Virus record (IMG/VR): IMGVR_UViG_3300046714_000572
Span: 1-54,698 of that record
Length of the DNA stretch: 54,698 nt
Direction: 5' to 3' (one strand)
Source of the DNA: a virus
Shown here: positions 8,216 through 54,698 of the stretch, piece after piece
Numbering within the stretch: the first letter of the stretch is position 1
Layout of the letters: each line of letters begins with the position of its first letter
Translations under genes and position numbers: made by a program
The notes under the pieces: model-generated
Told to the model about the DNA's origin: nothing
Database searches by the model: none
The model's input: the letters and a program-made list of their open reading frames with translations, nothing else

Positions 8216-8262
8216 CAAACCGACGGACGCCCGGTAGGCGACCACAACAAAGCGAGGCAACG

Positions 8263-8439
8263 ATGACCATGAAGGTGACGATGACGAAGCCGAGCCGGGC
8301 GAGAATCGCCAGGCTCTACCGGGAGGGTGCGACGCTGCGCGACCTCCAGGAGCAGTACGGACACAGCCTGACGACGCTCCTGCGCATCCTGCGCAGCCGG
8401 CGAGTCAAGATCCGCCCGCGCGGGAGGGTCCCGGCGTAG
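8263..8439 (+). CDS. Small helix-turn-helix DNA-binding protein (58 aa)
   Basis: GCGAGGCAAC precedes the ATG at 8263. The product is very basic and is almost entirely one resolvase/homeodomain-type helix-turn-helix: a helix with IARLYREGATL, a turn, and a recognition helix around SLTTLLRILRS. It could be a regulator of phage promoters or a DNA-binding accessory of the replication genes. The TAG overlaps the GTG of the SNF2 helicase gene, so the two are co-translated. Confidence 0.7.
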   Translation: MTMKVTMTKPSRARIARLYREGATLRDLQEQYGHSLTTLLRILRSRRVKIRPRGRVPA

Positions 8440-10514
8440 TGAGCGACTCGGTCCTGGACCCCTTCGCTCGCGCGCGCAAGACGGCGAGGCACGATACGGC
8501 GCAGTCTCTCGAGATTGCCCGTATCGTGTCGCTGCCCATCGTGGAGCTGCCGACCGACGAGGAGGTCGAGGAGTTCTGCCGGTGCGAGGTCCAGGCCGAA
8601 TACTTCGAGGGCAAGGACGGCGAGCGACCGTTCCGGCTCTTCAACACCCAGGTCGGCGGCGTGCTGGCGTGGGACATGTACAAGGGGCTCTTCGGCTGCA
8701 TCGGCGTCGGCTGGGGCAAGACGCTCATCACGCTGATGATCGCCAACCGCGCGTACGAGTCCGGCGACTCGCAGCGCTCGCTCCTCCTCGTGCCGTCGCA
8801 GGTCTACGCGCAGCTCACTCAGCGCGACATCCCGTGGGCGCGCAAGCGCGTCGGCCTGCGCGTGCCGTTCGTGCTGATGGGCGGGCGCGACGCGGCCTCG
8901 CGGGCGTCCGCGGCGAAGTCGCAGAAGCGCGGCTGCTACGTAGCGCCGTACTCGCACCTCTCGACGAAGGACGCCGAGGCCGTGCTGCACGGCATCGCGC
9001 CCGACCTGCTGATCCTCGACGAGGCGCACAAGGTCAAGAACGCCAAGGCGGCGCGGACCGCGCGCGTGATGCGGTACCTGCGCGCCCGACAGCCCCGCGT
9101 GGTGGCGCTCTCCGGCACGATCACGTCGAAGTCGATCTCCGACTACCACCACCTGCTCACGTTCTCCCTCGGCGAGCGCAGCCCGCTGCCTCTCGAGGGC
9201 GCGCTGGCGCTGAACTGGTCCTACGTCCTCGACGCTAACGCCGACCCGAGCGACGCGCAGACCGGGCCGATCGCGCCGCTGATCGACTGGGCGCGGAAGG
9301 AGTTCCCGGCGGAGAAGCTGCCGAAGGGCGTGCCGGGATTCCGCAAGGCCTACCGCCTGCGGCTGAACACTTCGCCCGGCGTCGTCGCGACCGGCGACAA
9401 CGAGATCGGCGTGTCGCTGACGATCCAGAACAAGCCCGTCGACATGAGCGTCGTGGACGACAAGCCCGAGATGGTCCGCCTGCGCAAGCTGATGCAGGAC
9501 GTCGAGGAGCTGTGGCGCACGCCGTCGGGCGACGAGATCGAGTGGGGCTTCCAGAAATGGCGCTACCTCTACGAGCTGACGTCCGGCCTGTACAACAACC
9601 TGCGCTGGCCGACGACCGACGAGCTGATGCTGCGCGGCCGGCTCTCGCGCGACCAGGCCGTCGAGCACCTGATGCTCGCGAAGATGCACCACGAGGCGCT
9701 CCAGGAGTACCACAAGAAGCTGCGCCGGTGGATAGAGCGCGCCGGGCGCGCGAAGCTCGACACGCCGTTCCTGATCGCCGCGAACATGGCGAACCACGGC
9801 GCCGAGGACGTCGGCGAGGAGCTGTACGAGGCCTGGTGCGGCGCGAAGGACCTCGAGTTCGACGGCATGCCGTCGCGGCTCTCCGAGCCGATCCGCGTGT
9901 GCGACTACAAGATCCAGCACGCCGTCGCGTGGGCGCGCGAGCTGTCCGAGCGCAAGCCGGCGGAGGGCGGGCTCATCTGGTTCAAGCACGACGAGTCGGG
10001 CCGCTGGCTCGCCGAGGAGCTTCAGCGCCAGGGCCTCGGGGCGATCTGGGCGCCGGCCGAGTCGGTGCGCAAGGGGATGAACGAGCTGGTCGACTACAAG
10101 CCCGGCGAGACCCGCACGCTGGTCATCTCGATGGGCGGGCATGGCGAGGGCAAGAACCTCCAGCACGAGTTCTACAACCAGCTCTTCCTCGACTTCCCTC
10201 GCGACGCCAGCCTCGCCGAGCAGGTCCTCGGGCGCACGCACCGCAACGGTCAGAAGGCCGACGAGCTGGTGGCGCACACGATGAACACGCTCCAGTTCGA
10301 CCACCTGAACATGGCGGCGTGCCTGGTCGATGCGCTGTACAACCACCAGACGACGGGCTCGCGGCAGAAGCTCATCTACTGCTCGCACGACCCGCTGCCG
10401 AAGGTCTACCCGCTCGACTTCCTCCGCGAGCGGGGGTTCGTGGACGTCGCTCAGCTCGACGCAGAGGCCCGCGCCGCGCTGGAGGAGAAGTTCGGGCCGA
10501 TGACGAGGTCCTGA
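8439..10514 (+). CDS. SNF2-family DEAH helicase/translocase
   Basis: The GTG at 8439 overlaps the previous stop. The 691-residue protein has superfamily 2 motifs in order: Walker A GVGWGKT (about residues 88-95), DEAH box LILDEAHKVKN (about 190-201), motif III LSGTITS, and motif VI QVLGRTHRNGQ (about 594-604), the signature of SNF2/Swi2 translocases. Phage SNF2 proteins lie in replication modules with PolA, Cas4-like nucleases and SSB-like proteins and are thought to remodel or unwind forked DNA. No extra domain is evident. Length and motif order are normal for phage members. Confidence 0.9.
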   Translation: MSDSVLDPFARARKTARHDTAQSLEIARIVSLPIVELPTDEEVEEFCRCEVQAEYFEGKDGERPFRLFNTQVGGVLAWDMYKGLFGCIGVGWGKTLITLMIANRAYESGDSQRSLLLVPSQVYAQLTQRDIPWARKRVGLRVPFVLMGGRDAASRASAAKSQKRGCYVAPYSHLSTKDAEAVLHGIAPDLLILDEAHKVKNAKAARTARVMRYLRARQPRVVALSGTITSKSISDYHHLLTFSLGERSPLPLEGALALNWSYVLDANADPSDAQTGPIAPLIDWARKEFPAEKLPKGVPGFRKAYRLRLNTSPGVVATGDNEIGVSLTIQNKPVDMSVVDDKPEMVRLRKLMQDVEELWRTPSGDEIEWGFQKWRYLYELTSGLYNNLRWPTTDELMLRGRLSRDQAVEHLMLAKMHHEALQEYHKKLRRWIERAGRAKLDTPFLIAANMANHGAEDVGEELYEAWCGAKDLEFDGMPSRLSEPIRVCDYKIQHAVAWARELSERKPAEGGLIWFKHDESGRWLAEELQRQGLGAIWAPAESVRKGMNELVDYKPGETRTLVISMGGHGEGKNLQHEFYNQLFLDFPRDASLAEQVLGRTHRNGQKADELVAHTMNTLQFDHLNMAACLVDALYNHQTTGSRQKLIYCSHDPLPKVYPLDFLRERGFVDVAQLDAEARAALEEKFGPMTRS

Positions 10515-10516
10515 CC

Positions 10517-10837
10517 ATGCTGACCATTCGCGAGCTAGTCTTCCTCAGCTACGAGACGATCTCCCCCAAGATAATCGAGGACGGCTGGCGCCCGCTATGT
10601 ACGCGCCCCGGGTCCATGATCGGAGACACCGTCCTAGCCGTCCTGGTCGACACCAAGAACGAGCAGCAGGCGGAGGTGTTCCACGCCGTGCGGCCGGGCG
10701 ACGCGCTGCCGGCGCCGGCTGGCAAGGAGCTGGCGTTCGTGGGGGCGTGCGGGGACAAGTACCTCTTCCTCGAGCTTCCCGTCGAGGCCGAGGCGGACCC
10801 CCGCGGAGAGCGCCGGATCGGCCGCCCCGAGTGGTAG
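10517..10837 (+). CDS. Hypothetical protein (106 aa)
   Basis: The ATG at 10517 follows the SNF2 stop by two bases. The product is soluble, with mixed alpha/beta character, a Pro/Gly loop in the middle and a basic C-terminus. No motif is recognised. It ends shortly before the promoter at 10868 and is likely the last gene of the helicase transcription unit. Confidence 0.6.
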   Translation: MLTIRELVFLSYETISPKIIEDGWRPLCTRPGSMIGDTVLAVLVDTKNEQQAEVFHAVRPGDALPAPAGKELAFVGACGDKYLFLELPVEAEADPRGERRIGRPEW

Positions 10838-10867
10838 CCGTCTACCTGGGTTTCCTCAAGATTCCCC

Positions 10868-10895
10868 TTGCCCGCGCCGAAGATGGATGTACACT
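10868..10895 (+). promoter_or_regulatory. Promoter for the SSB-like gene
   Basis: TTGCCC (10868-10873), 16 bp, TACACT (10890-10895). A start near 10902 would give a leader of about 43 nt before the ATG at 10945. The TACACT -10 recurs at 1629, 11505 and 14565. Confidence 0.6.
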
Positions 10896-10944
10896 GTACG
10901 CGCCTGCAAGCAACACGGACAAGTACCAAGATAAGGACACTGAC

Positions 10945-11466
10945 ATGGGTGCATTCTCAGGGATGAAGGACGCGAAGCGCGGCTTCGCAAGCAACCCGCT
11001 CCGACCCGGCAAGTACGTCGTGCGCATCGACGCCTGCGACTTCTTCAAGTCGGACAACGGGGAGTACTGGAAGAACACGCTGACGATCCTGGCCGTCGAC
11101 CAGGGCGACCACAAGGTCGGGGAGGTGGTCAACACCTTCTTCAAGTTCAAGGACACCGCGGAGGGGCGGACGATCTTCCAGCAGAACCTCAAGTCCTTCA
11201 TGGCGGGTATCCTCGCCTGCGAGGACGAGCAGATCGACGAGTCCGCCGCGAAGCGCGCGAGCGGCGAGGAGCAGACGATGCGGGGGATGATCACCGTCGT
11301 CAGCGGCGTGATGCGCACGAGCAAGAACAAGGTCTACGAGGACGGCCCCCAGAAGGGGCAGCCCAAGCAGTACCCGGTCTTCTCGTGGGCGCCGTCGCTC
11401 GACGCCGAGGAGACCCTGGCCGCGATCGGCGCGGAGAACTACAAGAAGTTCTTCCCGAGCGGCTGA
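10945..11466 (+). CDS. Single-strand DNA-binding-like protein (DUF669/DUF2815-like)
   Basis: AAGGACA sits upstream of the ATG at 10945. The 173-residue protein has an OB-fold-like run of strands: GKYVVRIDACDFF, then WKNTLTILAV, VVNTFFKFK, and a late MITVVSGVMRTSKN segment with an acidic, disordered insertion (about residues 92-108). This layout and its position between the Cas4/SNF2 genes and the family A polymerase match phage DUF669 or DUF2815 proteins, which are proposed single-strand binding proteins. It would coat single-stranded phage DNA during replication and recombination. Assignment rests on pattern and neighbourhood. Confidence 0.6.
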   Translation: MGAFSGMKDAKRGFASNPLRPGKYVVRIDACDFFKSDNGEYWKNTLTILAVDQGDHKVGEVVNTFFKFKDTAEGRTIFQQNLKSFMAGILACEDEQIDESAAKRASGEEQTMRGMITVVSGVMRTSKNKVYEDGPQKGQPKQYPVFSWAPSLDAEETLAAIGAENYKKFFPSG

Positions 11467-11659
11467 GACTTGATGCGATCGGTCCGCCCTTGAAGCCCTT
11501 CGGGTACACTTCGGGGTAGGAGCATGCGGAGGAGCAGACCGAGCTAACTTCGCTCCAAGACGAACTGGACAAAGGAACGTGAAAGCCGGCGGACGTTCGC
11601 CACCAGGCTTGACGAGGGAGAGACCTCACCAGCACACAAACCACAGAGAGGATCTGCAC
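11467..11659 (+). promoter_or_regulatory. Leader region with a possible TACACT promoter
   Basis: This 193-nt gap contains TACACT at 11505-11510 and an AAAGGAACG stretch near 11570. As at 1594, a TTGA tetramer lies exactly 35 bp before the TACACT hexamer, with no standard -35 at 17 bp. A longer in-frame start (GTG 11579) for the next gene lies here but gives a low-quality, His/Arg/Pro-rich N-terminus. Confidence 0.35.
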
Positions 11660-12166
11660 ATGGCCGCACGTAAGGGAACGAAGAGGAAGTCGAGGGCTAG
11701 CCCGAAGACTCAGTTGACGACGGCGCAGAGCGTCGCTGCGCTCGAGCGCGTGGTGAGCGAGCTGCGCGGGGTCATCTGCTTCCAGCACGAGACGAGGCTG
11801 GAGGCGCTCGAGGAGAAGATGCGCCAGACGCAGGAGGGTCTGGGCGGCGCCGTCTGGCGCACGCAGCAGGGTCACGCGCGCTTCATTGCGCTGCTCTCGA
11901 CGCAGCACCTGAAGAACATCCTTGCGTGGCCGCGGGTCAGCGACCGGATCAAGAACCTGGTGGAGGCCGAGCTGGGCCGGCGCGAGGTCGACGCGCAGTT
12001 CCGCAAGGAGGAGTGCAGCAACACTTTCCAGGGGCCGTTGAAGGTGGCGCTCTTCTCGCATGGCATCCCGTGCGACCCGGCGCCTCTGAGCGTCTCGGAA
12101 CGCATCGACCTCCTGATGAAGCAGGTGGACAAGCTGACGCGGGCGATCGGACAGCTCCCGCGATGA
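11660..12166 (+). CDS. Hypothetical basic protein with coiled-coil centre (168 aa)
   Basis: I chose the ATG at 11660 because it follows AGAGGATCTGCAC, a leader nearly identical to the one before the gene at 51447. The N-terminal 20 residues are Lys/Arg/Ser-rich, as in DNA-binding tails. The middle is helical with heptad-like spacing, and the C-terminal helix ends in a Leu/Lys pattern. No catalytic motif is seen. It is coupled (ATGA) to the CxxC mini-protein and the DNA polymerase, so a replication accessory role is plausible but unproven. Confidence 0.6.
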   Translation: MAARKGTKRKSRASPKTQLTTAQSVAALERVVSELRGVICFQHETRLEALEEKMRQTQEGLGGAVWRTQQGHARFIALLSTQHLKNILAWPRVSDRIKNLVEAELGRREVDAQFRKEECSNTFQGPLKVALFSHGIPCDPAPLSVSERIDLLMKQVDKLTRAIGQLPR

Positions 12167-12309
12167 CCACCTGCGCCGTCTGCGAGGTCCTCTCCCCGGC
12201 CGCGGTCAACTGCCCCGACTGCGCCCGCTGGCTCTGTACCGACTGCTGGGGCAGCATCGCGGACAACAGGAACTGCGGCCTGTGCCAGGCCGGGGTAGGA
12301 GCAGCATGA
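12163..12309 (+). CDS. Four-CxxC zinc-binding mini-protein (48 aa)
   Basis: The ATG overlaps the preceding TGA. The 48-residue peptide contains four CxxC pairs (CAVC, CPDC, CTDC, CGLC), enough for two zinc ions in a RING- or double-ribbon-like fold. Its stop overlaps the ATG of the DNA polymerase gene, so the two are translationally coupled. It may be a polymerase cofactor or adaptor; the sequence gives no direct proof. Confidence 0.65.
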   Translation: MTTCAVCEVLSPAAVNCPDCARWLCTDCWGSIADNRNCGLCQAGVGAA

Positions 12310-14546
12310 CCCGCGTCGTCGCCTTCGACACAGAGACCCACCTCATCGGCCCCGGAGCCGTCGCCCCGCCGCTCGTGTGCGGCTCCTTCGCGTGGCGCAG
12401 CGCCGACGGCGCGATGGACTCCTCCCTGATGGGCAACCATCCCGACGACGGGCTAGAGGCCGCGATCGAGCGGATGTTGCTCGCCGACGAGGCCCTGATC
12501 GTCACGCACTCCGGCGGCTTCGACTGGACGGTCGTGTGCGCGAAGTATCCGCGTCTCTTGCCGCTGGTGTTCAAGGCGCTGCTCTCCGGTCACGCGACCG
12601 ACACGAAGTGGCGGGAGAAGCTCCTGAACCTGAGCACTACGGGGCGGCTCGACAAGGTCGCCCTGCCCGACGGCTCGTCGGCGGACATCAGCTACCACCT
12701 CGCCGACCTCACTCTCCAGTACACCGGCCAGGACCGCTCGCACCTCAAGGAGGGCGACGACATCTGGCGCCTCGCGTACGCCGCGCTCGACGGCTGGCGC
12801 GCCGCCGACTACCCGCAGGACGCCGCGGACTACGCCATCGGCGACGCGACGGACACCCTGCTCGTCTACGAGGCCCAGGAGCGACGCAAGGCCGAGTGGA
12901 AGATGGCCTCGACGGCGACCGAGGAGTTCCGCACCGCGGCCCACTTCGCCCTGTACTTGATGTCGGCGCACGGCGTCGAGGTCGACCCCGAGGAGACCGC
13001 TCGAGTGCGGGCGGAGGTCACCCGCCGCATCGACGAGGTCGAGGGATCGCTCGTGGCCGCGGGCTTCATCGAGCCGGCTGTCCCGATGCAGCCGTACAAG
13101 TCGCAGGGCAAGCGCCTCGACGCCTGGGCTAAGGCGAACTTCGGCGCCGTCGTCGAGCCGTCCTTCGACTGGTCGCCGTACCGGGAGGAGCTGGAGAAGG
13201 TCGGCGTCAAGTTCACCGAGGCGAAGAAGTCCAAGCGCAACACGAAGCCGATCCAGGAGTACGTCGCCGCGCTGTACAAGCAGCTCGGCGAGATTCCCAC
13301 GATGACCGACGGCGGGGAGAAGGCCGAGCCGCAGATCAAGCTCGACGGCGAGGTGCAGGAGTACCTCGCGTACAAGGACCCGCTAATGGAGGCCTACCAC
13401 GGGCGCCAGTCGCTCCAGAAGATCATCGAGCAGCTCGACGTCCTCGAGTCTGGTCCCGTGATCTACCCTCAGTACGACGTGCTGAAGGAGACCGGCCGCA
13501 CGTCGAGCTACGGCAACTCGAAGACCCGCGAGCCGCTGTACCCCTCGGCGAACATCCAGCAGGTCCCCGGGCCGCGCGACGGCCTCGACGTGCGCCGATG
13601 CTACCGACCGCGCGAGGGGCGCGTGTTCTTCGACGTGGACGTCACCGGCCTCGAGCTGGCGACGGTCGCGCAGGTCACCTACGACCTGTTCGGCACGTCG
13701 GTCCACATGGACCGGTACAACGCCGGGGTCGACCTGCACGGCTACCTCGGCGCGCAGCTCGGCCTACAGATCATGGACGACGAGCTGTCGCAGCACTTCC
13801 GCCAGCTCTGCAAGGCCGAGCGCATCGCGGACGACCCGATGGGCGTCTACGACGCCTTCATGCGCTGCAAGAAGCACGAAGACGAGCCCGTTCGGAAGTG
13901 GTTCAAGCACGTCCGCACGTTCGCGAAGCCGGTCGGCCTCGGCCTGCCCGGCGGCCTCGGGCCGGAGACTCTAGTGGACTTCGCCCGCAAGACGTACGGC
14001 GTGCTGATGACCGTGCAGCAGGCGAGCGACTTCCGCGAGGTCTGGCGCGCGACGTACCCGGAGATGCCTCGCTTCTTCGACTGGATCTCCGGCCAGACCG
14101 ACGAGCACAACGGCCAGAACGAGGCCGGCGAGAAGCTCTATTGGTACGAGACTCCGCTCGGCATGATCCGCCGCGGGGCGACGTACTGCGCCGCGGCGAA
14201 CGGGAAGTGCATGCAGTCGCCCGGCGCCGAGGTCGCGGAGACCTGGACCATCCTCGTGCAGCGCGAGTGCTACGACCCGACGCAGGAGTCCGTCCTGCTC
14301 GGAGCGCGGCCGGTCGCGTTCGTGCACGACCAGATCCTCGGCGAGACGACGCGCGAGGAGGCGCTGTGGCACGACCAGTGCATGCGCGTGAAGGCGATCC
14401 TCCAGGAGTGCTCGAAGCTGGTCCTGCCCGACGTGAACATCCGCTCCGACGAGGCGCACCTGACGCGCCGCTGGACGAAGGACTCCGTGCCGGTCTTCGG
14501 ACCGGACGGCCGGCTGATCCCGTGGGAACCCAAACAAACCGCTTGA
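12306..14546 (+). CDS. Family A DNA polymerase with 3'-5' exonuclease domain
   Basis: The 746-residue protein starts at the ATG at 12306 (GGAGCAGC upstream). The N-terminal exonuclease carries DTET (Asp8, Glu10), THSGGFDW (second site) and YAIGDATDT (third site), so proofreading looks intact. The polymerase part has motif A FFDVDVTGLELA (about residues 439-450), an O-helix-like KPVGLGLPGGLG stretch with a downstream KTYGV, and motif C FVHDQI (about 672-677). Motif A (DVTGLELA rather than DYSQIELR) and motif C (HDQ rather than HDE) differ from the textbook forms. This would be the replicative polymerase of the phage. Confidence 0.92.
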   Translation: MTRVVAFDTETHLIGPGAVAPPLVCGSFAWRSADGAMDSSLMGNHPDDGLEAAIERMLLADEALIVTHSGGFDWTVVCAKYPRLLPLVFKALLSGHATDTKWREKLLNLSTTGRLDKVALPDGSSADISYHLADLTLQYTGQDRSHLKEGDDIWRLAYAALDGWRAADYPQDAADYAIGDATDTLLVYEAQERRKAEWKMASTATEEFRTAAHFALYLMSAHGVEVDPEETARVRAEVTRRIDEVEGSLVAAGFIEPAVPMQPYKSQGKRLDAWAKANFGAVVEPSFDWSPYREELEKVGVKFTEAKKSKRNTKPIQEYVAALYKQLGEIPTMTDGGEKAEPQIKLDGEVQEYLAYKDPLMEAYHGRQSLQKIIEQLDVLESGPVIYPQYDVLKETGRTSSYGNSKTREPLYPSANIQQVPGPRDGLDVRRCYRPREGRVFFDVDVTGLELATVAQVTYDLFGTSVHMDRYNAGVDLHGYLGAQLGLQIMDDELSQHFRQLCKAERIADDPMGVYDAFMRCKKHEDEPVRKWFKHVRTFAKPVGLGLPGGLGPETLVDFARKTYGVLMTVQQASDFREVWRATYPEMPRFFDWISGQTDEHNGQNEAGEKLYWYETPLGMIRRGATYCAAANGKCMQSPGAEVAETWTILVQRECYDPTQESVLLGARPVAFVHDQILGETTREEALWHDQCMRVKAILQECSKLVLPDVNIRSDEAHLTRRWTKDSVPVFGPDGRLIPWEPKQTA

Positions 14547-14570
14547 CACATAACCAAACCGAGGTACACT
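14543..14570 (+). promoter_or_regulatory. Near-consensus promoter that may give a leaderless mRNA
   Basis: TTGACA (14543-14548), 16 bp, TACACT (14565-14570). The ATG of the next gene is at 14577, exactly where transcription would begin, with no Shine-Dalgarno site between. The -35 overlaps the polymerase stop codon. Confidence 0.75.
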
Positions 14571-14576
14571 GAACCC

Positions 14577-15245
14577 ATGAGCGAACAAGAGTCCGACTAC
14601 GACGCCTACTGCGACTCGCAGTGCTCGTTCACCCCTGCGCCAGCTCGGCCGGGCTCGCGGGACTACGACCTGAAGGACAGCGGCACCCGCCGCGAGTTCG
14701 ACACAGGCGCGAAGCGCGACGCGGCGACCGGCAAGGGGCGCTACGACCTGATCTCGCCGCTGGCGACGCGGCGCAAGGCGATCCTGCTCGAGAAGGGCGC
14801 GATCAAGTACGACGCCCGCAACTGGGAGAAGGGCATGCCACTGAGCGTGTTCCTCGACTGCGCGAAGCGCCACCTGGACAAGTACCTGGAGGGCCTGCGC
14901 GACGAGGACCACCTGGCCGCGGCGTCGTGGAACATCGACTGCATGATGCACTTCGAGGAGATGATCGCCCGCGGGCTGAAGCCGGCGGAGCTGGACGACA
15001 TGCCGAGCTACGTGCCGGCGCCGGTCGACCAGATCGAGATCACCGCTCCGCCGCCGGACGACCTCTTCCACGTCGAGGTGCTCGTGCCGGTCGAGGGAGA
15101 GGAGCCGCAGTGGGTCGAGCAGGGACACGGACGCGACAGCTTCCCAGTCGCGGTCGGTGCTGCGGAGCACCTGTTCGACACTCGCACGGATCACGCCATC
15201 CGCGTGAAGCACCGCGGGGTCATCCTCTGGACTTGCACCCGATGA
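14577..15245 (+). CDS. dATP/dGTP diphosphohydrolase-like protein
   Basis: Residues 40-130 match the phage dATP/dGTP diphosphohydrolase N-terminal domain: FDTGAKRDAATGKGRYDLI, then LLEKGAIKYDARNWEKGM, RHLDKYLEGLRDEDHLAAA and WNIDCMMHFEEM. These Asp/Glu/His-rich helices resemble MazG-type all-alpha pyrophosphatases. The family hydrolyses dATP/dGTP to the monophosphate and was linked to 2-aminoadenine phages, but it is widespread in others. Residues 150-222 form a separate beta-rich domain of unknown role. The gene has its own promoter at 14543 and possibly leaderless translation, and is coupled by ATGA to the helix-turn-helix gene. Confidence 0.8.
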   Translation: MSEQESDYDAYCDSQCSFTPAPARPGSRDYDLKDSGTRREFDTGAKRDAATGKGRYDLISPLATRRKAILLEKGAIKYDARNWEKGMPLSVFLDCAKRHLDKYLEGLRDEDHLAAASWNIDCMMHFEEMIARGLKPAELDDMPSYVPAPVDQIEITAPPPDDLFHVEVLVPVEGEEPQWVEQGHGRDSFPVAVGAAEHLFDTRTDHAIRVKHRGVILWTCTR

Positions 15246-15569: not shown

Positions 15570-16118
15570 ATGCTCACCATCGGCATCGACCCGGACCTTC
15601 ACGACCTCGCGGTCGGCTACTGGGACAATGGTCCTAGGACTGCGTACGTCACCCACGTCGCGCACCGCAAGGGGAGGATCGGACAGACGGCCGTGATGGA
15701 CATGATCCTCGCGATGCGCCTGGAGGTCCCGTTCATCGACCGCGACCATGATGTCGATGCCGTCGCCGTCGAGGCGCAGACCTTGATGCGTTCAGGCTCC
15801 AAGCAGCACAAGCGCCCTCAGGACATTGTGATCCTCGGGAACGTGGCCGGCGCCGTACTCGGGATGCTCGCTGGAGCTGGTTATCCCAGTATCCTCTTCC
15901 CGACGCCGGAGCAGTGGAAGGGCCAGCTCCCCAAGCACGTCATGCAGGCCCGCCTCTACGACGAGCTGGGCTGGGGCTACGAGATGTGCGCGTCGGACAG
16001 CTACGCCGTGCCGCTGCGCATCCCGAACACCTTCGAGCACATCACCAAGGGCCAGTGGAAACACGTGGGCGACGCGCTGCTCCTCGCGCGCTGGGCCTAC
16101 GAGAAGAGGACGAAGTGA
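15570..16118 (+). CDS. RuvC-like Holliday junction resolvase / RNase H-fold nuclease
   Basis: The 182-residue protein shows the RuvC-type acidic triad: GIDPDLHDLAVG (Asp7) on the first strand, VDAVAVEAQ (Glu69) on the next conserved strand, and KHVGDALLLARWA (Asp168) in the C-terminal helix. A long Gly/Ala helix and a Pro-Thr-Pro-Glu-Gln-Trp-Lys segment are also typical of phage RuvC relatives. It would cleave branched DNA made during replication or before packaging. Its GTGA overlap with the next gene shows co-translation. Confidence 0.8.
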   Translation: MLTIGIDPDLHDLAVGYWDNGPRTAYVTHVAHRKGRIGQTAVMDMILAMRLEVPFIDRDHDVDAVAVEAQTLMRSGSKQHKRPQDIVILGNVAGAVLGMLAGAGYPSILFPTPEQWKGQLPKHVMQARLYDELGWGYEMCASDSYAVPLRIPNTFEHITKGQWKHVGDALLLARWAYEKRTK

Positions 16119-17470
16119 CCAAGAAGAACGAACGCATCCGTCGAGACCCTGCCACCGAGAAGACGCCGCGGCAGCAGATGCTCCAGCGCTACGAGGCCAG
16201 CCTCATCGAGGCCGACAAGAAGCGCCTCGCGAACGCCGACCTGCGCGAGTCCTACCGCTCGAACCGCGCCAAGCGCGAGAAGGTCCGGCAGCTCCTGATC
16301 GCCGACCTGATCCACGTCTACCAGCACCCGGACAATCCCTACGCCGGCTGGGCCGCGTCGCGCAAGCGCTACCGCGAGCTGGGGCACTTCCCCGAGATCA
16401 TGGTCGCCGACCTCTTCGGCACGCACGCCGAGTTCGAGCGCGCCGCCGGCCTGCGCGACCAGCGCGGCACGTCGAAGGTCGGGCTGCTCACCGCGCGACT
16501 CCACTCCGAGCGCGAGATCCGCGAGTACGCCGAGGAGTCGGTTCTCGGCTCCGTCGGGCGCTGGACGAAGAAGTACCGCGAGACGTCGGGCGTCAAGCAC
16601 GTCATCGTCGGCAGCGACTTCCACGGGCAGTTCGTGGACCCGCTCGCCCTGCGCGTGTGGCTCGACACCATCCAGGACGTGCAGCCCGACGTCGTGGTCC
16701 TGAACGGCGACGTCACGGACTTCCCGCAGGTCAGCCGCTTCACGCTGATGCCCGGCGCCGGCTCGCTGTCGCTCCAGGCCGAGATCGACTGGACGCGCGA
16801 GAACATCCTGGCCCGCACGAGGAAGGCCGCGCCGAAGGCCGCGATCCTCTACGTGATCGGGAACCACGAGCACCGCCTGATCCGCTATCTCGCCGACACC
16901 GCGCCCGAGCTGGCGTCGCTGCGCTGCCTGCGCTGGGACACCCTCTTCGGGATCGAGGACCTCGGCATCGAGATGGTCTTCGGCGGCAACTTCCTCGCGC
17001 CGCGCCAGCGCGACCGCGTCGACAACACGCGGCGCAAGACGCACGCCGTGCTGTTCGACTCCCTCGTGGTCACCCACGGCAAGTCGCTCGCGGACAACGC
17101 GCCGAAGGCAGAGCTGGAGCGCTGGGGGATGTCGGGCACCTCGGGCCACACGCACCGGCCCGGCATCCAGACGCGCCCGACGCACGCCAATCCGCACCTC
17201 TCGTGGACCAGCACGCCGATGATGGCGGGCTTCGCGGTCGGCAAGGACTACGTGGACGGACCGAGTAGCTGGACGATGGGCTTCGCGGCCTTCACGGTCG
17301 ACGCCCGCGCCGGCATCGTCGTCCCGCAACTCATCCCGATCTACGAGGACTTCGCCTCGTGGAACGGCCACGTCTGGCGCCCGAGCGACAAGGCTCGCGC
17401 TATCCGCCGCACAATGTGGGGGGAACATGGGGACATAACGGCCAGCGAGCGCGGCAAGGACGTGATGTGA
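16115..17470 (+). CDS. Calcineurin-like metallophosphoesterase
   Basis: The GTG at 16115 overlaps the RuvC-like stop. All motifs of the calcineurin superfamily appear in order: GSDFHGQF (about residue 166), VVLNGDVTDF (about 193), VIGNHEHRL (about 246), VVTHGKS (about 316) and SGHTHRPG (about 343). A helical N-terminal extension of about 140 residues with WAASRKRYRELG suggests a DNA- or protein-binding segment. Phage members act as nucleases, nucleotide phosphatases or protein phosphatases. Next to a RuvC-like resolvase, a DNA repair/recombination nuclease (SbcD/Mre11-like) is the likelier choice, but the substrate is unknown. Confidence 0.85.
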   Translation: MTKKNERIRRDPATEKTPRQQMLQRYEASLIEADKKRLANADLRESYRSNRAKREKVRQLLIADLIHVYQHPDNPYAGWAASRKRYRELGHFPEIMVADLFGTHAEFERAAGLRDQRGTSKVGLLTARLHSEREIREYAEESVLGSVGRWTKKYRETSGVKHVIVGSDFHGQFVDPLALRVWLDTIQDVQPDVVVLNGDVTDFPQVSRFTLMPGAGSLSLQAEIDWTRENILARTRKAAPKAAILYVIGNHEHRLIRYLADTAPELASLRCLRWDTLFGIEDLGIEMVFGGNFLAPRQRDRVDNTRRKTHAVLFDSLVVTHGKSLADNAPKAELERWGMSGTSGHTHRPGIQTRPTHANPHLSWTSTPMMAGFAVGKDYVDGPSSWTMGFAAFTVDARAGIVVPQLIPIYEDFASWNGHVWRPSDKARAIRRTMWGEHGDITASERGKDVM

Positions 17471-18717: not shown

Positions 18718-20433
18718 CTACTGCGCTGCGGGGTCGCTCGCCTGCCGGTCGTGCGCGCTGCCGAGCAGTCCCTGGTTCGGGTCGCGCCCAGAGCCGGTGA
18801 TCGGCTGGCGCATGCTCGCCATCGTGTTGGCCGCTGCCGGCGTCATGCCGTCGAGCAGCGTCTTGAAGCCGTTGCCAGGCGTGACGTGGATCGGCATCCC
18901 GTTCTCGTCCGTCGGCCCGCCGCCCCCGGCTCCGCCCGCGGCCATCGCCGCGTTCGGGTCCGGCGCGGCCACCGAGGGGCCGGTCGTGGTCTGCGACGCC
19001 GTCGGGCCGAGCGCGCCCGCGGCCTTCGCGATCGGCGACGTCGGAGCCGGTGCTCCGGCCGCCTGAGGCCCGGGCAGCGCCGGCGAGCCAGGAGCGCCCG
19101 CGGGCGCGACCGGCGGCTTCGCCTTGACCGAGCCGCCGAGGAACTGCTCGGCCCTGAGCTTCTCCTTCGAGCCGTCCGGCTGCGCGAACTCCGTCTCCTT
19201 CGCGCCCAGCGTGCGCGCGAAGATCGTGCTGAAGTTCCGCTGCGCCGGACCGATCTTGCGCTTCTGGATCAGCATGAGCGCGTTCGGCCCCTCGTTCACC
19301 GCGCCGATCTTCGCCGGCAGAGCCACGTTCGCCAGCATAGGCGGGACGCCGTGCGCCGTGGTGATGAGCATCGCGAGCGTCATCGACTTGTCGCTGAAGC
19401 CGTCCTTGCCGCCGTCGTCCATCGCGAGGCGCTCGATCTGGACGGAGGTGTCCTGCGTCGAGCTGGGGATCTGCACCGCGCACGTCTTGTGGGAGTTCCC
19501 CGAGCCCTGGCTCGCGCGCAGCATGTTCTCGAACTTCTCCCACGTCTTCGTGGTGGCGTTCGGGCTGATGAGGAAGGCGATGAACTCGGGCACCGCGCGG
19601 TTGAAGTAGAAGTCGAACTCGTGCTGCGTCATGCACTGCACCAGCTCGATCGACGGCACCGCGGACATGTAGTCGGGAAAGCCGTACCAACGCGAGCGGT
19701 TGCGCGACTGCCGGATGTGGATGACCTCCGAGTTGGTGATCGTGCCGCTCGGCGAGCTGCGCCGCGAGCGCTGCGCGTCGTTCGCGTTCACCGTGTTCGG
19801 GTCGACGCCGCCGTCGGTCTGCACGCCGAAGCGCTTCTTCAGCTCCGCGAGGTCTCCCCACTTCGCCATCACGGTCGTCATGCCGGAGGCCGTCTCGCCC
19901 TCGACGACGTAGTGGTACAGCTCGGAGTTGTTCTCCTCCTCGACCTCGACGCGACACTGGCGGGACTCGATGTGTCCGAGGCCCGTCACCAGGTTCGGGT
20001 TCGACTCGTCGTTGCGCACCACCTCGAGGAAGCACTCGCCGGTCTCCCAGTAGTCGTCGGCCATCGCGTCGAGCGTGTCCTGCCAGGAGAACTGGCACAG
20101 CGGGTCGAGGATCTCGTGGATCGTCTCGTCGCGGTGGCCGAGGCCCACCGTCGCCGACGCCTTCGCGTCGATGCACGCGGCGTGCGTGGTGTTCGCGTCG
20201 CGCAGCTCGCGCGCCACGTCCTTGTCGATCAGCGGCGTGCGCGCGCCGACGGCGATGCCCTGGTTCGTCTTGTCCTTCGGGTCGACCGGCTTCACCGCCT
20301 GCCCGTCGGCGGTGGACTTGCGCAGCAGGCGCCAGGTGAGGCCCTCGGCGCCGTAGATGTCCCGCGTCTTCCTCTCCGACCGGATGAGCTTGAAGTCGGG
20401 CTGGGCGGGGGCGGACGGCGTCTCGTCGCTCAT
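18718..20433 (-). CDS. Portal protein
   Basis: The 571-residue protein has the portal layout: an alpha/beta N-terminal region (THAACIDAKASATVGLG, then WETGECFLEVVRN), a stem/wing region with VIHIRQSRNRSRWYGFP and a helical stretch, and MLITTAHGVPPMLA, as in PBSX/HK97-type portals. The last 130 residues are a Pro/Ala/Gly-rich disordered tail. It forms the dodecameric DNA-entry ring of the head. Unusually, it is on the minus strand, divergent from the protease/capsid operon and about 23 kb from the terminase genes. Confidence 0.9.
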   Translation of the reverse strand: MSDETPSAPAQPDFKLIRSERKTRDIYGAEGLTWRLLRKSTADGQAVKPVDPKDKTNQGIAVGARTPLIDKDVARELRDANTTHAACIDAKASATVGLGHRDETIHEILDPLCQFSWQDTLDAMADDYWETGECFLEVVRNDESNPNLVTGLGHIESRQCRVEVEEENNSELYHYVVEGETASGMTTVMAKWGDLAELKKRFGVQTDGGVDPNTVNANDAQRSRRSSPSGTITNSEVIHIRQSRNRSRWYGFPDYMSAVPSIELVQCMTQHEFDFYFNRAVPEFIAFLISPNATTKTWEKFENMLRASQGSGNSHKTCAVQIPSSTQDTSVQIERLAMDDGGKDGFSDKSMTLAMLITTAHGVPPMLANVALPAKIGAVNEGPNALMLIQKRKIGPAQRNFSTIFARTLGAKETEFAQPDGSKEKLRAEQFLGGSVKAKPPVAPAGAPGSPALPGPQAAGAPAPTSPIAKAAGALGPTASQTTTGPSVAAPDPNAAMAAGGAGGGGPTDENGMPIHVTPGNGFKTLLDGMTPAAANTMASMRQPITGSGRDPNQGLLGSAHDRQASDPAAQ

Positions 20434-20486
20434 GTGTCGATCCTGGGGATAGTGCTACCCCCTCGAAAGAGATTCTCGGTTTTCCC

Positions 20487-20516
20487 TTGGCGGGCCTGCC
20501 ACATCGGCAGTATTCT
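20487..20516 (+). promoter_or_regulatory. Virion operon promoter with an operator in its spacer
   Basis: TTGGCG (20487-20492), 18 bp, TATTCT (20511-20516). The spacer holds the palindrome CTGCC-ACATC-GGCAG (20496-20510), directly abutting the -10. A second copy lies downstream at 20527. This promoter would drive protease, capsid and tail genes. Confidence 0.65.
20496..20510. promoter_or_regulatory. Operator copy 1, CTGCC-N5-GGCAG
   Basis: Perfect 5-bp arms, centre 20503. It lies in the -35/-10 spacer of the virion promoter, where a bound protein would block RNA polymerase. It is 31 bp (about three helical turns) from copy 2. Confidence 0.65.
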
Positions 20517-20540
20517 ACAGGCTTGGCTGCCAGGATGGCA
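20512..20540 (-). promoter_or_regulatory. Possible divergent promoter for the portal gene
   Basis: On the minus strand, TAGAAT (20512-20517) is a good -10 that overlaps the -10 of the rightward promoter. The expected -35 position falls inside operator copy 2 and is not consensus. The leader to the portal ATG at 20433 would be about 72 nt. Confidence 0.4.
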
Positions 20541-20541
20541 G
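20527..20541. promoter_or_regulatory. Operator copy 2, CTGCC-N5-GGCAG
   Basis: CTGCC-AGGAT-GGCAG, just downstream of the expected rightward start site and over the -35 zone of the leftward portal promoter. It could let one regulator control both divergent units. Confidence 0.65.
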
Positions 20542-20607
20542 TCCTTTCTCGGATTCCTGTCGCAGATGCCCACAGAACACGCCGCAGGCGCCGTCCCGGA
20601 GGCCTCC

Positions 20608-21915
20608 ATGCCGATCTCCAAGTCCGTCCTCGACGCCGCCGCCCGCAAGAAGATCCCCCACGGGGACTTCGCCGGCCCCGACGAGTCCTACCCCATCGAG
20701 GACGAGGCCCACGCCCGCAACGCGCTGGCGCGCGCGGCGCAGAACGGCGACCCGGCGCTGATCGCCCGCGTCAAGGCGGCCGTGCGGAAGAAGTACCCGC
20801 ACATCGCGGTCGACGGCGAGCCGACGTCGAAGGCGCGCCGCATCAAGGCCGCGGCCATCACCAGCATCGCGCTCTGCAAGCGCGGCGTCAACGGCTTCCG
20901 CACGCTGCTCAAGGCCGACGGCTCGCTCTGCTGGGAGACGCTCACCAAGACGGCCGGGGAGAACGAGCTGCTCAACGTGGTGTACGCGCCGGACCGCGAG
21001 GACGGCGACGGCGAGTTCGCCTCGGCCGAGGTCATCAAGGCCGCGGCCCACGCCTACAACCGCGACCACCGCGAGCTGGACATCGAGCACGACGGGAAGC
21101 CCCTCTCCAACGAGGACGCCTACGTCGCCGAATCCTTCATCGTGGCGAAGGGCGACGAGCGCTTCGCGGACTGGAAGGGCTACGACGGCCAGCCGGTCGG
21201 CGACCTCACGGGCGCCTGGGCCACGGTCATCAAGCTCGAGAGTCCGGTGCTCCAGAAGGCGTACCGCGACGGAGAACTCGACGGAGTAAGCATGTTCGGG
21301 CAAGCAGCCCTCGAGCGTGTCGATACCACGGCTGCCTCGAAGCGCGTCGCCGACAGGCTCGGCAAGTCGCGCGACGCACAACAGGAACAGGAGATCGAGA
21401 TGGACGAGAAGCAACTGAAGGAGATCCTCTCCGGCTTCAAGGCGGAGATGGTCGAGGTCGTGAAGAGCACCGTCGCCACGCTGTCGAAGCCGGCGGAGAA
21501 GACCGAAGAGAAGGCGACCGACGAGACCCCGGTCTTCAGCGGCGACGCGACGAAGCCGGCGGACCTCGAGGCCTTCGCGGGCGTCCTCAAGGCCCACGAG
21601 ATCAACAAGTCGCTCAAGAGCGGCAAGATGACCGCCGAGCAGATCGTCGCGCTGGCGAAGTCGCTCTCGGCCGTCGAGCCGTCCGACGAGGACGCGGGCG
21701 TCGTGGCCGGCGACTCGCCGGAGGTGATCGGCCTGAAGCGCCAGCTCTTCAAGGCGCAGCGCACGCGCAACGCGCCCGAGGGCGGAGCGTCCGCCGACGA
21801 GGGCGTCGAGTCGATCGCGAAGGCCGCGGCCGACGAGGGCCGCTCCATCGCGGCAGTCTACAACGAGCAGCGTGGGTCCCGGACCGAATCCGGCATGCGT
21901 CTCGTCAAGAGCTGA
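20608..21915 (+). CDS. Prohead protease (XkdF-like) with C-terminal scaffold region
   Basis: I chose the ATG at 20608 because GGAGG lies six bases upstream; an in-frame ATG at 20566 lacks a ribosome site. Residues 1-70 contain the IPHGDFAGPDESYPI and DEAHARNALARAA segment common in phage protease genes. The central part resembles XkdF-type serine proteases: VVYAPDREDGDGEFASAEVI, then LDIEHDG (catalytic-type His), YVAESFIV and GELDGVSMFGQA (Ser in the turn). From about residue 265 the protein is Glu/Lys-rich helix, as in scaffolds. It would mature the procapsid and scaffold the shell. Confidence 0.8.
   Translation: MPISKSVLDAAARKKIPHGDFAGPDESYPIEDEAHARNALARAAQNGDPALIARVKAAVRKKYPHIAVDGEPTSKARRIKAAAITSIALCKRGVNGFRTLLKADGSLCWETLTKTAGENELLNVVYAPDREDGDGEFASAEVIKAAAHAYNRDHRELDIEHDGKPLSNEDAYVAESFIVAKGDERFADWKGYDGQPVGDLTGAWATVIKLESPVLQKAYRDGELDGVSMFGQAALERVDTTAASKRVADRLGKSRDAQQEQEIEMDEKQLKEILSGFKAEMVEVVKSTVATLSKPAEKTEEKATDETPVFSGDATKPADLEAFAGVLKAHEINKSLKSGKMTAEQIVALAKSLSAVEPSDEDAGVVAGDSPEVIGLKRQLFKAQRTRNAPEGGASADEGVESIAKAAADEGRSIAAVYNEQRGSRTESGMRLVKS
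21400..21915 (+). CDS. Nested scaffold protein from an internal start
   Basis: Inside the protease ORF an in-frame ATG at 21400 follows CAGGAGATCGAG, a well-spaced Shine-Dalgarno site. It begins at the protease/scaffold boundary with MDEKQLKEILSGFKAEM, a charged amphipathic helix. The 171-residue product would be the free scaffold, as with lambda C/Nu3. The nested arrangement is common in phages; the internal start here is inferred. Confidence 0.5.
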   Translation: MDEKQLKEILSGFKAEMVEVVKSTVATLSKPAEKTEEKATDETPVFSGDATKPADLEAFAGVLKAHEINKSLKSGKMTAEQIVALAKSLSAVEPSDEDAGVVAGDSPEVIGLKRQLFKAQRTRNAPEGGASADEGVESIAKAAADEGRSIAAVYNEQRGSRTESGMRLVKS

Positions 21916-51446: not shown

Positions 51447-51932
51447 ATGTCGACGCTGAAGAAATACGAGCACACCAATCTGGACGGATCGAAGGCGACC
51501 ATATACCTAGGGGCCGGCGCGCGCATCGGGGCCGGCGCGAGCATCGGGGCCGGCGCGAGCATCGGGGACTACGCGCGCATCGGGGACTACGCGCGCATCG
51601 GGGCCGGCGCGCGCATCGGGGCCGGCGCGAGCATCGGGGCCGGCGCGAGCATCGGGGACTACGCGCGCATCGGGGACTACGCGCGCATCGGGGCCGGCGC
51701 GAGCATCGGGGCCGGGCAGTCTCTCCACGGAAGTACCGGGAGCTACTACTGGGATGTATACCTCGCGAAGGGCGGGATACCGTTCCTGCGCTTCGGATGC
51801 GAGGGCCATCCGCTCGCGAAGTGGACGGAGTCCTTCCAGAAGTCGAAATGTGCGGAGCACGACTGCGACGCGGCGTCAGACTTGCTGCGGGTGGTGAGGG
51901 CTGCGCGCGCGTTCCTGAAGGGACTGAAGTAG
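51447..51932 (+). CDS. Left-handed beta-helix (hexapeptide-repeat) protein (161 aa)
   Basis: GAGGACCTGCAC precedes the ATG, the same leader as at 11660. Residues 22-93 are 12 hexapeptides of the form G-x-x-A-(R/S)-I, with GAGARI, GAGASI and GDYARI units, the signature of left-handed beta-helices in acyl- or sialyl-transferases and some structural proteins. Residues 94-161 form a compact cap with WDVYLAKGGIPFLRFG and two Cys. No acetyltransferase His loop is visible, so an enzyme role is doubtful. It may be a structural or decoy protein. The repeat DNA is exactly duplicated (next entry). Confidence 0.75.
   Translation: MSTLKKYEHTNLDGSKATIYLGAGARIGAGASIGAGASIGDYARIGDYARIGAGARIGAGASIGAGASIGDYARIGDYARIGAGASIGAGQSLHGSTGSYYWDVYLAKGGIPFLRFGCEGHPLAKWTESFQKSKCAEHDCDAASDLLRVVRAARAFLKGLK
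51510..51689 (+). repeat. Exact 90-bp tandem duplication within the beta-helix gene
   Basis: Bases 51510-51599 and 51600-51689 are identical. Each contains five 18-bp units (one GGGGCCGGCGCGCGCATC, two GGGGCCGGCGCGAGCATC, two GGGGACTACGCGCGCATC). Exact identity over 90 bp means a recent expansion, likely by slippage or unequal recombination; it changes beta-helix length by 30 residues. Confidence 0.9.
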
Positions 51933-51944
51933 GGGACTCTCTAG

Positions 51945-52232
51945 GTGGACGCTATCCCTCCGCACCTCCGCGCTCGACTGGACGTGATCCTCGCGAGGCA
52001 CGCGAACAATCTAGCTACCCTCACCCTGATCATACGGGACCGCAACGCGCGAGCCTGCGCCCCGGACGTGCTGCGGGAGCGCATCGAGGCGCTCCGGCTG
52101 GAGGTGCGCAGGCTGAGCAGGGACTGGGAGCGCTTCCGCGCGGACGCGCTGGCGCTGGAGGACAAGGGGAAGATAGCGAAGGACTCATTCCGAGGACTTG
52201 AGATACCCGATACACTGCCGGAGGAACTGTGA
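51945..52232 (+). CDS. Helical hypothetical protein (95 aa)
   Basis: The GTG at 51945 follows GGGGACTCTCTAG weakly. The product is largely alpha-helical with Arg/Glu/Leu heptads from about residue 35 to 70 (VLRERIEALRLEVRRLSRDW), probably a coiled coil. It may be a partner of a neighbouring protein. Its stop overlaps the next GTG. Confidence 0.55.
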   Translation: MDAIPPHLRARLDVILARHANNLATLTLIIRDRNARACAPDVLRERIEALRLEVRRLSRDWERFRADALALEDKGKIAKDSFRGLEIPDTLPEEL

Positions 52233-52579
52233 GCATGGACGCGGACAAGCCGATCACGTACAGGGCGAGGGTGACACTGGTCGACGGGACCTCCCGTAGC
52301 TGGACGCTGCGCGCGTCGGACGAGTTCTGCGCTCGCGTATCCGCTTGGGTGAACCTCGTCGACTGCGGCGTGCTCCAGGTACGATCCATCGAGGTAACTC
52401 CCGAGCCGGACGCTCCGCACATGGACGCGGACTACTTCGACCGACGCTCGCTCGCGCTGCGCGACATGGTGGGCAGTCACTCGGTATATCGTGGCAGCCG
52501 CAGCATCCACAGAGTCATGTGGGCGCAGCTCAGGGAGCTGTACGTGGTGCCCGACTCTCTACTGGGGGAACTTCAGTGA
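52229..52579 (+). CDS. Hypothetical protein (116 aa)
   Basis: The GTG overlaps the previous stop; an ATG two codons later (52235) is the alternative. It has a beta-strand N-terminus (ITYRARVTLVDGTSRSWTLR), a helix with two Cys, and a helical C-terminus. No motif is recognised. Coupled to both neighbours. Confidence 0.55.
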   Translation: MSMDADKPITYRARVTLVDGTSRSWTLRASDEFCARVSAWVNLVDCGVLQVRSIEVTPEPDAPHMDADYFDRRSLALRDMVGSHSVYRGSRSIHRVMWAQLRELYVVPDSLLGELQ

Positions 52580-52779
52580 CGGACGCGCGCATAACGCACC
52601 TCGCGCGCTGGACGGACGCGCGGTACGTGCTACAGTCCCTCGGACTTGCGTCCGCTGACGGCAAGTCATGGGGATCGGTGAGAGTGCCCAACTCTGCGCT
52701 CACGGACGGCAGGCTGTGGGTGCGCTTCGTGGGTGGGCCGAGGGGCGGACAGACGCAGGGGTTCGTGGCCGATGGCTGA
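52576..52779 (+). CDS. Hypothetical protein (67 aa)
   Basis: GTG start at 52576 overlapping the previous TGA. A small protein with a helix, then SWGSVRVPNSALTDGRLWV and a Gly/Arg turn. The 3' end overlaps the start of the GGDEF gene by 8 nt, which may couple their translation. Confidence 0.5.
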   Translation: MTDARITHLARWTDARYVLQSLGLASADGKSWGSVRVPNSALTDGRLWVRFVGGPRGGQTQGFVADG

Positions 52780-53386
52780 TCTGTCTAGCGACGAGCACGA
52801 GCGCGCGCACGCGGAGCTGTCATTCGCCAGCGCGGATTCGACCGCCTACCGACGCTTCCTTGAGCGCCTCGCGCGGCTGCCCGAGGTCGAGCGCGAGGCG
52901 GAGCGCGCGGCGCGCGACGCGGAGGTGGACTCGCTCACCGGACTCTACAACCGGCGCGGACTGGTCCGCCGGACGCGCAGGCACGGCGGCGCGAGTTGGT
53001 TCGTGTTCTGCGACCTCGACGGCTTCAAGCGCGCGCAGGACGCGAACCCCGGCCACCACGCCTACGGCGACGACGTCCTGCGCGAGTTCGCGCACTTCCT
53101 GCGCGAGGGGACTCGCGGCGCGGACGTGACGCTGGCGCGCGAGGGCGGGGACGAGTTCGTGGTGCGCGTGGACAGCCGGGCAGGCGCCCGTCGGGTGCGC
53201 GACCTCGTGCGCGCGTGGCGCAGCGCCGACGGCGCGGTGAGCGCAAGCGCCGGGCTAGGCGCCGACGTGGACGCGGCAGACTGCGCCTGCCACCTGAACA
53301 AGGAAGACAGGCGGGCCGCGATGCTGCCGACATTTACGGCGGCGTGGTTCGAGCTGAGGAAGCAACTTCAACGGAGGATGTGGTAA
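52772..53386 (+). CDS. GGDEF-domain protein (putative diguanylate cyclase)
   Basis: The ATG at 52772 gives 204 residues. Residues 1-50 are a charged helical lead with no membrane segment. From residue 52 a GGDEF domain follows in full: VDSLTGLYNRRG, FCDLDGFKRAQD (metal-binding Asp81), GHHAYGDDVLREF (Asp100, guanine contact), AREGGDEFVV (signature at 125-129), SASAGLG and a C-terminal helix with NKEDRR. It would make c-di-GMP from two GTP if active as a dimer. Deviations: the usual Asn contacting guanine (FKxIND) is Gln89, and the RxxD inhibitory site (RGAD) is one residue further from GGDEF than usual. No sensor domain is attached. Confidence 0.85.
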   Translation: MADLSSDEHERAHAELSFASADSTAYRRFLERLARLPEVEREAERAARDAEVDSLTGLYNRRGLVRRTRRHGGASWFVFCDLDGFKRAQDANPGHHAYGDDVLREFAHFLREGTRGADVTLAREGGDEFVVRVDSRAGARRVRDLVRAWRSADGAVSASAGLGADVDAADCACHLNKEDRRAAMLPTFTAAWFELRKQLQRRMW

Positions 53387-53390
53387 CCCT

Positions 53391-53699
53391 ATGAACGACT
53401 GGCGTATGCTGCGCGTTGTGCTACTGTCCATCGTGGCCGGGCTCGTCCTGGCCGTGGCCGTCTCCTCCTGCGCCGCGCCCCCGCGCAGCGTCGTGACGCT
53501 GGGGACCTCGACCGAGGCCGACGTGCGCGCGGCCTTCCCGAGGGAGACCTTCTGCACGGTGCAGCGCCAGGACGGCACCGCGCTGCTGGTGGTGTTCTTG
53601 CGCCCGCGACCCGCTGCCCCTGGGGGCGGCAGCCTGAGCTACGTGCTGGACGCGCGGGGCGTGGTCGTGGCCCGCGGACCCATCGTCGTCCTGAATTGA
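53391..53699 (+). CDS. Small lipoprotein, BamE/SmpA-like (102 aa)
   Basis: GGATGTGGTAACCCT precedes the ATG, five bases after the GGDEF stop. The signal sequence (MRMLRVVLL-like; residues 6-26) ends in VAVSSC, a lipobox (Cys27). The rest, LGTSTEADVRAAFP and DGTALLVVFL, resembles the two-helix/three-strand BamE or SmpA lipoprotein fold. As the partner of a GGDEF gene it might be an envelope effector, or an exclusion lipoprotein. Fold assignment is tentative. Confidence 0.65.
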   Translation: MNDWRMLRVVLLSIVAGLVLAVAVSSCAAPPRSVVTLGTSTEADVRAAFPRETFCTVQRQDGTALLVVFLRPRPAAPGGGSLSYVLDARGVVVARGPIVVLN

Positions 53700-54107: not shown

Positions 54108-54208
54108 GCAAGAAGCGCCGCAAGTACGTGAACGGCCGGCTGCTGCCGATGAGGCTCCGCAGCGGCTCGGCCGCCCGCAGGCGCAGGGCTCGGAGGCTCT
54201 GGCAGTGA
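54104..54208 (+). CDS. Tiny, very basic peptide (34 aa)
   Basis: GTG overlapping the previous TGA; the peptide contains about 14 Arg/Lys residues (RLRSGSAARRRRARRLW). Its TGA overlaps the start of the UDG-like gene. A nucleic-acid-binding peptide or chance ORF; coupling favours a real gene. Confidence 0.4.
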   Translation: MSKKRRKYVNGRLLPMRLRSGSAARRRRARRLWQ

Positions 54209-54698
54209 CCGCTCGCCTCCTCTTCGTCGGCGAGGCCCCGACGCCCGCCACGATCAGCCACCCGCTGCACCCGGACTACTGCGACAGCGGACGCAGGCTG
54301 CTCGAGTACACGGGCTGGTCGCGAGAGGAGTTCCTGCGACTGTCGGACCGGACGAACCTCATCGGCCATCCCTTGCCGCTGCTCAGGAGCGGCGCGACGA
54401 TCTGGGACACGGGGGAGGCGAGGCGATCGGCCGATCGGGTGTGCAGGCCGGAGCACTACCACGTCGTGCTTCTCGGCCGCAAGGTGTCCGCGGCCTTCGG
54501 CGCGCCGACGAGCCAGGCCTTCTTCCAGTGGTGCCCGCGACTGACGAAGGAGATGACCCACTTCGGCAAGATCGCTATCTGCCCGCACCCGAGCGGTCGC
54601 AACCGCTGGTGGAACGACGCGCACAACAGAGACCAGGCGAGGAAGTTCTTCAACCGCCTCGCGACCGACGTCTGGACGCCTCAGTCGAGCCCGGCGAT
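54205..54698 (+). CDS. Uracil-DNA-glycosylase-like protein, 3'-truncated by the window edge
   Basis: The GTG at 54205 overlaps the previous stop; the frame is open to the window end. The N-terminal LLFVGEAPTPA matches the water-activating/phosphate-binding motif region of UDG-fold proteins (GxxPG-like VGEAP), and HPSGRNRWWND near residue 135 matches the C-terminal HPS motif of that superfamily. It may be a DNA repair glycosylase or a UDG-fold protein with another role. Sequence after residue 164 is not in the window. Confidence 0.65.
   Translation, partial: MTARLLFVGEAPTPATISHPLHPDYCDSGRRLLEYTGWSREEFLRLSDRTNLIGHPLPLLRSGATIWDTGEARRSADRVCRPEHYHVVLLGRKVSAAFGAPTSQAFFQWCPRLTKEMTHFGKIAICPHPSGRNRWWNDAHNRDQARKFFNRLATDVWTPQSSPA

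Follow-up and report, generated by a model that had tools for sequence, protein, structure and literature searches.

The canonical GGDEF diguanylate cyclases, among them PleD, WspR, Dcsbis and SiaD, are the best described relatives of the protein reported here. The guanine contacts of PleD are D344 and N335, the latter of which has been reported to be essential for GGDEF activity (PMC7288161). The RxxD inhibition site, canonically situated five residues before GGDEF, is not universal among active enzymes (PMC7911125). A changed base-contact residue has been seen before in the Hypr GGDEF enzymes (Geobacter GacA), in which replacement of Asp344 by Ser constitutes the known route to cGAMP, and whose structure identifies the fourth residue of GGDEF as the general base acting across the dimer (PMC6456294).

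Phage GGDEF proteins are already on record. That of Bacillus phage G, gp350, is annotated as a GGDEF-motif diguanylate cyclase and, like those of Bacillus phage SP-15 and Bordetella phage CN1, is matched by fold to the protein described below; a GGDEF domain is also found in a Mu-like marine virus (PMC7785012). The view of the earlier note that such proteins are rare in phages is thus right only in part, as annotated examples exist. Phage polyvalent proteins likewise carry GGDEF domains, for which interference with host nucleotide signals has been proposed (PMC5512222), and we observed one of this type in the phage contig L004 (positions 7853-15241), a protein of 2462 aa with an internal GGDEF domain that keeps the canonical Asn. 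In these polyvalent proteins GGDEF is a single module within a very large multidomain chain, whereas the protein described here is small and stands alone. It shares that character with mCpol/OptS of the Panoptes defence, also a small stand-alone palm-domain nucleotide cyclase involved in phage-bacteria conflict, although OptS is bacterial and nearly devoid of a GGDEF motif, whereas the present protein is phage-encoded with a full one. The intact GGDEF rules out membership of this degenerate-GGDEF group of minimal CRISPR polymerases, and PADLOC gave no match between the protein and known anti-phage defence proteins.

The window, by which we mean the whole stretch of 54,698 nucleotides analysed, is an entire IMG/VR virus record of 68% GC whose genes include a major head protein, protease, terminase, tail proteins, DNA polymerase and helicase. 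The structural genes bear out the earlier claim that a GGDEF protein lacking a sensor is encoded by a true phage and, together with the phage relatives described below, rule out host contamination. The GGDEF gene runs from the ATG at 52772 to a TAA stop ending at 53386 and encodes 204 aa. The features of the region, all on the plus strand, are as follows.

51945-52232, +, small upstream gene (95 aa) ending in PDTLPEEL, with a weakly similar counterpart upstream of GGDEF in related phages
52229-52579, +, upstream ORF of 116 aa to which no function is assigned
52576-52779, +, small ORF of 67 aa; its stop and the start codon of the GGDEF gene overlap (ATGGCTGA), as read from the sequence
52772-53386, +, stand-alone compact GGDEF protein, by profile, fold and sequence
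53012-53071, +, codons 81-100: metal Asp81, Phe85-Lys86, Ala88-Gln89-Asp90, the two-residue loop insertion and Asp100
53144-53158, +, codons 125-129, the GGDEF signature hairpin
53391-53699, +, small lipoprotein-like gene with an SSC lipobox and a homologue only in L002/L003
53787-54107, +, gene of 106 aa with conserved KRKLGxSxFT; wherever a related phage has the GGDEF gene, this gene adjoins it
54205-54696, +, gene of the uracil-DNA glycosylase superfamily, truncated where the contig ends

The overlap between the 67-aa ORF and the GGDEF gene looks as in a coupled operon. The two contig ends (window 1-130 and 54205-54698) have the appearance of a circular permutation point, and as the neighbour of the uracil-DNA glycosylase gene in L002 is the gene at window position 1, the record is taken to be circularly permuted; the glycosylase gene, used as a query for relatives, found no match among viral contigs. 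A megablast of 24.7 kb of the window against isolate phages likewise gave no match, and the nearest isolate-phage terminase and capsid proteins are less than 35% identical and span many hosts, so that they point to no particular host. Two other genes of the window stand out. One (51447-51932) encodes a 161-aa protein of tandem GAGARIGAGASIGDYARIG repeats, hexapeptide-like and probably a left-handed beta-helix, with a 52% relative in L009/L010. The other (18751-21915) is an ORF of 1054 aa whose GC pattern across codon positions is unusual; its head-protease-like match is confined to residues 626-880, and it may hold a fusion or a frameshift.

The protein consists of an N-terminal helix (residues 23-50), a GGDEF core (residues 50-181) and an extra C-terminal helix (residues 187-203), with no sensor domain. 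It matches Pfam PF00990 at 51.5 bits (1.3e-13; curated cut-off 23.8 bits) and NCBIfam TIGR00254 at 57.9 bits (9.8e-16; curated cut-off 37.4 bits), and six relatives also lie above the PF00990 cut-off. An AlphaFold model built from seven relatives has a mean pLDDT of 85.8, exceeding 90 across most of the domain, with the helices and strands in the order of a GGDEF domain; VIA-align superimposes it on the GGDEF domain of the diguanylate cyclase Dcsbis (4zmm) with a Z of 17.8 and 1.6 A over 129 residues. The earlier description of a complete GGDEF domain, with Asp81, Asp100 and the signature at residues 125-129, is therefore upheld with its numbering exact, and the structure prediction called for at that time returned the GGDEF fold. 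The profile and fold matches, the homologues and the dN/dS values given below rule out a chance motif or a spurious ORF. The domain is compact: GGDEF is followed by the next conserved Ser after 30 residues, most often 40 in the bacterial set described below, and the last beta strand is absent from the model.

With the canonical cyclases the protein has in common the fold, the hairpin, the metal Asp, the FK lysine, the Asp of D344, a DxLTxLxNRR start and a helix before the domain. It differs from them in that Gln replaces Asn335, the pocket loop is longer by two residues, RxxD is separated from GGDEF by at least one residue more, the part after GGDEF is shorter by about ten residues, and a sensor domain is lacking. 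Asp81 corresponds to the metal Asp D327 and is, with the GG(D/E)EF hairpin, invariant in the family, as is Asp100, the equivalent of PleD D344; across seven aligned relatives the invariant residues are Asp81, Lys86, Asp90, Asp100, GGDEF and the NR of NRR. Lys177, equivalent to the phosphate contact K442, is kept, whereas Arg181, the equivalent of R446, is present in the window protein and L002 and not in most relatives, in a part of the alignment that is loose. Asp100 stands where Hypr enzymes have Ser, which rules out membership of that group of cGAMP synthases: the Hypr change affects Asp344, whereas the present family retains that Asp and has its change at Asn335. The Hypr general-base position is kept in the window protein.

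The residue at the guanine-contact Asn position (PleD N335) is Gln89, as had been pointed out previously; what had escaped attention is a two-residue insertion in the pocket loop before GH. Together these give the family signature FKxAQDxxxxGHxxGD, in which residue 95 is His in the window protein and Gly in the other members. Both the Gln and the longer loop were seen in all seven phage relatives in the alignment, and subsequently in 14/14 family rows. The comparison set comprised 80 bacterial GGDEF domains, picked by similarity to the family and not at random, and three other phage domains; all 83 have Asn at this position, and 82 of them show the canonical spacing between it and the GD pair. 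Since the defining residue Asn335 was looked for and Gln was found, the protein is a member of the GGDEF domain family and not a canonical diguanylate cyclase.

When 2.9 million viral contigs were searched for back-translated FKxxQDxxxxGHxxGD, GGDEF not being required, 14 contigs were returned, in every one of which the match lies inside a stand-alone compact GGDEF ORF and Ala precedes the Gln even though the pattern left that position free. As L002 and L003 share one protein, the 14 matches represent 13 distinct phages, plus the window, which itself escapes the pattern in having HH instead of GH. The Gln motif with the canonical loop length matched none of the viral contigs, so that the change from Asn to Gln and the insertion appear to go together. 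In a tree of 97 domains the 14 family rows fall on one side of a branch with support of 98/92, and of 95 when the signature columns are dropped, while gp350, of 254 aa and with the canonical Asn and spacing, groups with the bacterial enzymes outside the family; the phylogeny suggested earlier as a check therefore places the window family in one clade. Judged by sequence, then, the window protein belongs to a monophyletic, phage-only GGDEF family with a rebuilt base pocket. No description of this family or its signature was found in the literature searched, and it is the family with its own pocket signature, rather than a GGDEF protein in a phage, that appears to be new.

GGDEF genes are very common in bacteria, and one might suppose that an ordinary bacterial diguanylate cyclase gene had newly been picked up by the phage, or that a host contig had been misbinned as viral. 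We consider this highly improbable in view of the head, protease, terminase and tail genes in the record and the clade just described, which holds when the signature columns are left out. Furthermore, the best bacterial proteins are at most about 50% identical, over short stretches, compared with 77% for a phage relative found in two contigs that share the GGDEF region, and the motif is absent from 396 genomes of the phylum of a Williamsia genome and from 398 of the phylum of a Nitrobacter genome (two phyla, 794 genomes altogether). Close pairs within the family have a dN/dS of about 0.2-0.4, with dS partly saturated (for L027/L035, dN is 0.07 and dS 0.34), and are under purifying selection, which fits any kept function.

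The gene also has conserved places. In the lineage of the window, six phages share one arrangement, in which a small gene is followed by GGDEF, then by a gene for a small membrane protein or a lipoprotein (in L028 no such membrane protein was recognised) and then by the KRKLG gene; several of the phage contigs among the relatives are fragments, and L035, L036 and L038 were added as relatives by alignment. A search with the KRKLG gene found six contigs, all six with the GGDEF gene adjoining, and L137 is a further contig with both genes. In a set of phages gathered separately on the basis of a related terminase, both records of at least 40 kb carried the GGDEF gene, as did L002/L003; a related record of 38 kb (G007) lacks it and may be a fragment. 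The label "accessory" given in the earlier note hence does not suit a gene with a conserved place in related phages where the region is present. Nor did its suggestion of the downstream lipoprotein as an effector hold up well: this gene has a homologue only in L002/L003, and other relatives encode an alternative small membrane protein at its position, which makes the lipoprotein an unpromising candidate.

In a sister group a gene for a ClpP-like protease precedes GGDEF (L126, L132 and L139, and L127 by its sequence), and upstream of it lies a metallophosphoesterase gene homologous to the window's own at 15914-17470. The cassette of metallophosphoesterase, ClpP-like protease and GGDEF occupies the following positions.

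L126, 6501-9396, followed by a MazG/PRA-PH gene
L132, 2653-6180, followed by a MazG/PRA-PH gene
L139, 708-3792

A MazG/PRA-PH-like pyrophosphohydrolase gene comes after GGDEF in L131 and L038 as well, and a dNMP kinase gene lies near GGDEF in L131. This position among nucleotide-handling genes argues against a random passenger. In L131, an SPFH/Band 7 membrane protein gene (7690-8283) adjoins the GGDEF gene.

Because the metal, phosphate and general-base residues are kept, we consider it likely that the window protein is an active cyclase. Of its possible products we lean towards c-di-GMP as the most likely, since the protein retains the Watson-Crick contact Asp100, the general base and the NRR arginines, and since Gln89 could plausibly replace Asn, given the lengthened loop that carries it. 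Counting against c-di-GMP synthesis are the loss of N335, reported to be essential, from every family member, the lack of the R446 equivalent in most of the family, and the fact that no phage-encoded receptor or off-switch was seen: PilZ and EAL domains (c-di-GMP receptor and phosphodiesterase respectively) are absent from the seven related phage records, so that any receptor for the product would have to be one of the host.

The fixed replacement of Asn by Gln, coupled to the insertion in 14/14 family rows and absent from all 83 comparison domains, strengthens an idea put forward previously, that base choice may differ. The rebuilt pocket could thus have changed the substrate, giving another dinucleotide (cGAMP, c-di-AMP, or a deoxy or linear product) that perhaps confuses or saturates host cyclic-nucleotide immunity or is the phage's own signal. 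In related polymerases Ser or Asn at base-contact positions steers the choice between adenine and guanine (PMC12657218), and the pyrophosphohydrolase and dNMP kinase genes adjoining sister members would be in keeping with such a change. However, neither the Watson-Crick Asp (PleD D344) nor the NRR arginines have been lost, and the Asp to Ser change known from Hypr is not seen here; a changed product is in our estimation unlikely. We are similarly doubtful that the pocket was rebuilt once and kept across many phages for a nucleotide other than c-di-GMP, serving as a phage signal or an immunity decoy.

The loss of an Asn reported to be essential, the compact form without a last strand and, in most members, an RxxD motif ahead of GGDEF that resembles an inhibition site would also suit a catalytically dead domain, acting as a regulator that binds GTP or c-di-GMP, or as a sponge. 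In the window protein, however, this motif (RGAD) is six residues before GGDEF, one further than in PleD, and it is lost in L131; moreover the metal aspartates, the FK lysine, both GGDEF acids and Lys177 are kept across very different phages, unlike in degenerate GGDEF domains, and we regard a dead domain as improbable.

Returning to the reading of an active cyclase, we propose a model in which this phage-specific GGDEF branch consists of a short helix, probably forming a dimer, and a compact cyclase domain lacking a sensor, encoded near phage genes concerned with replication and nucleotides. The active form would be a head-to-head pair in which Asp81/Asp127, by way of metals, and Lys86/Lys177 hold one NTP per copy; Glu128 from one partner would then activate the 3'-OH on the NTP bound by its counterpart, yielding a cyclic dinucleotide. 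Having no sensor, the enzyme would be switched on by expression alone, and its most likely role would be to determine the second-messenger state of the cell during infection; the host manipulation or action against immunity put forward in the earlier note is a matter of inference.

A GGDEF protein in a phage may readily be taken for a host gene picked up by accident. That a coherent phage-only clade has a distinctive active-site signature and keeps its gene in fixed places indicates instead that phages have retained and reshaped the enzyme, which is more than a transient acquisition. This opens the questions of whether a phage sets the level of c-di-GMP, or of another dinucleotide, in its host, and whether a GGDEF enzyme can work without the Asn thought to be essential.
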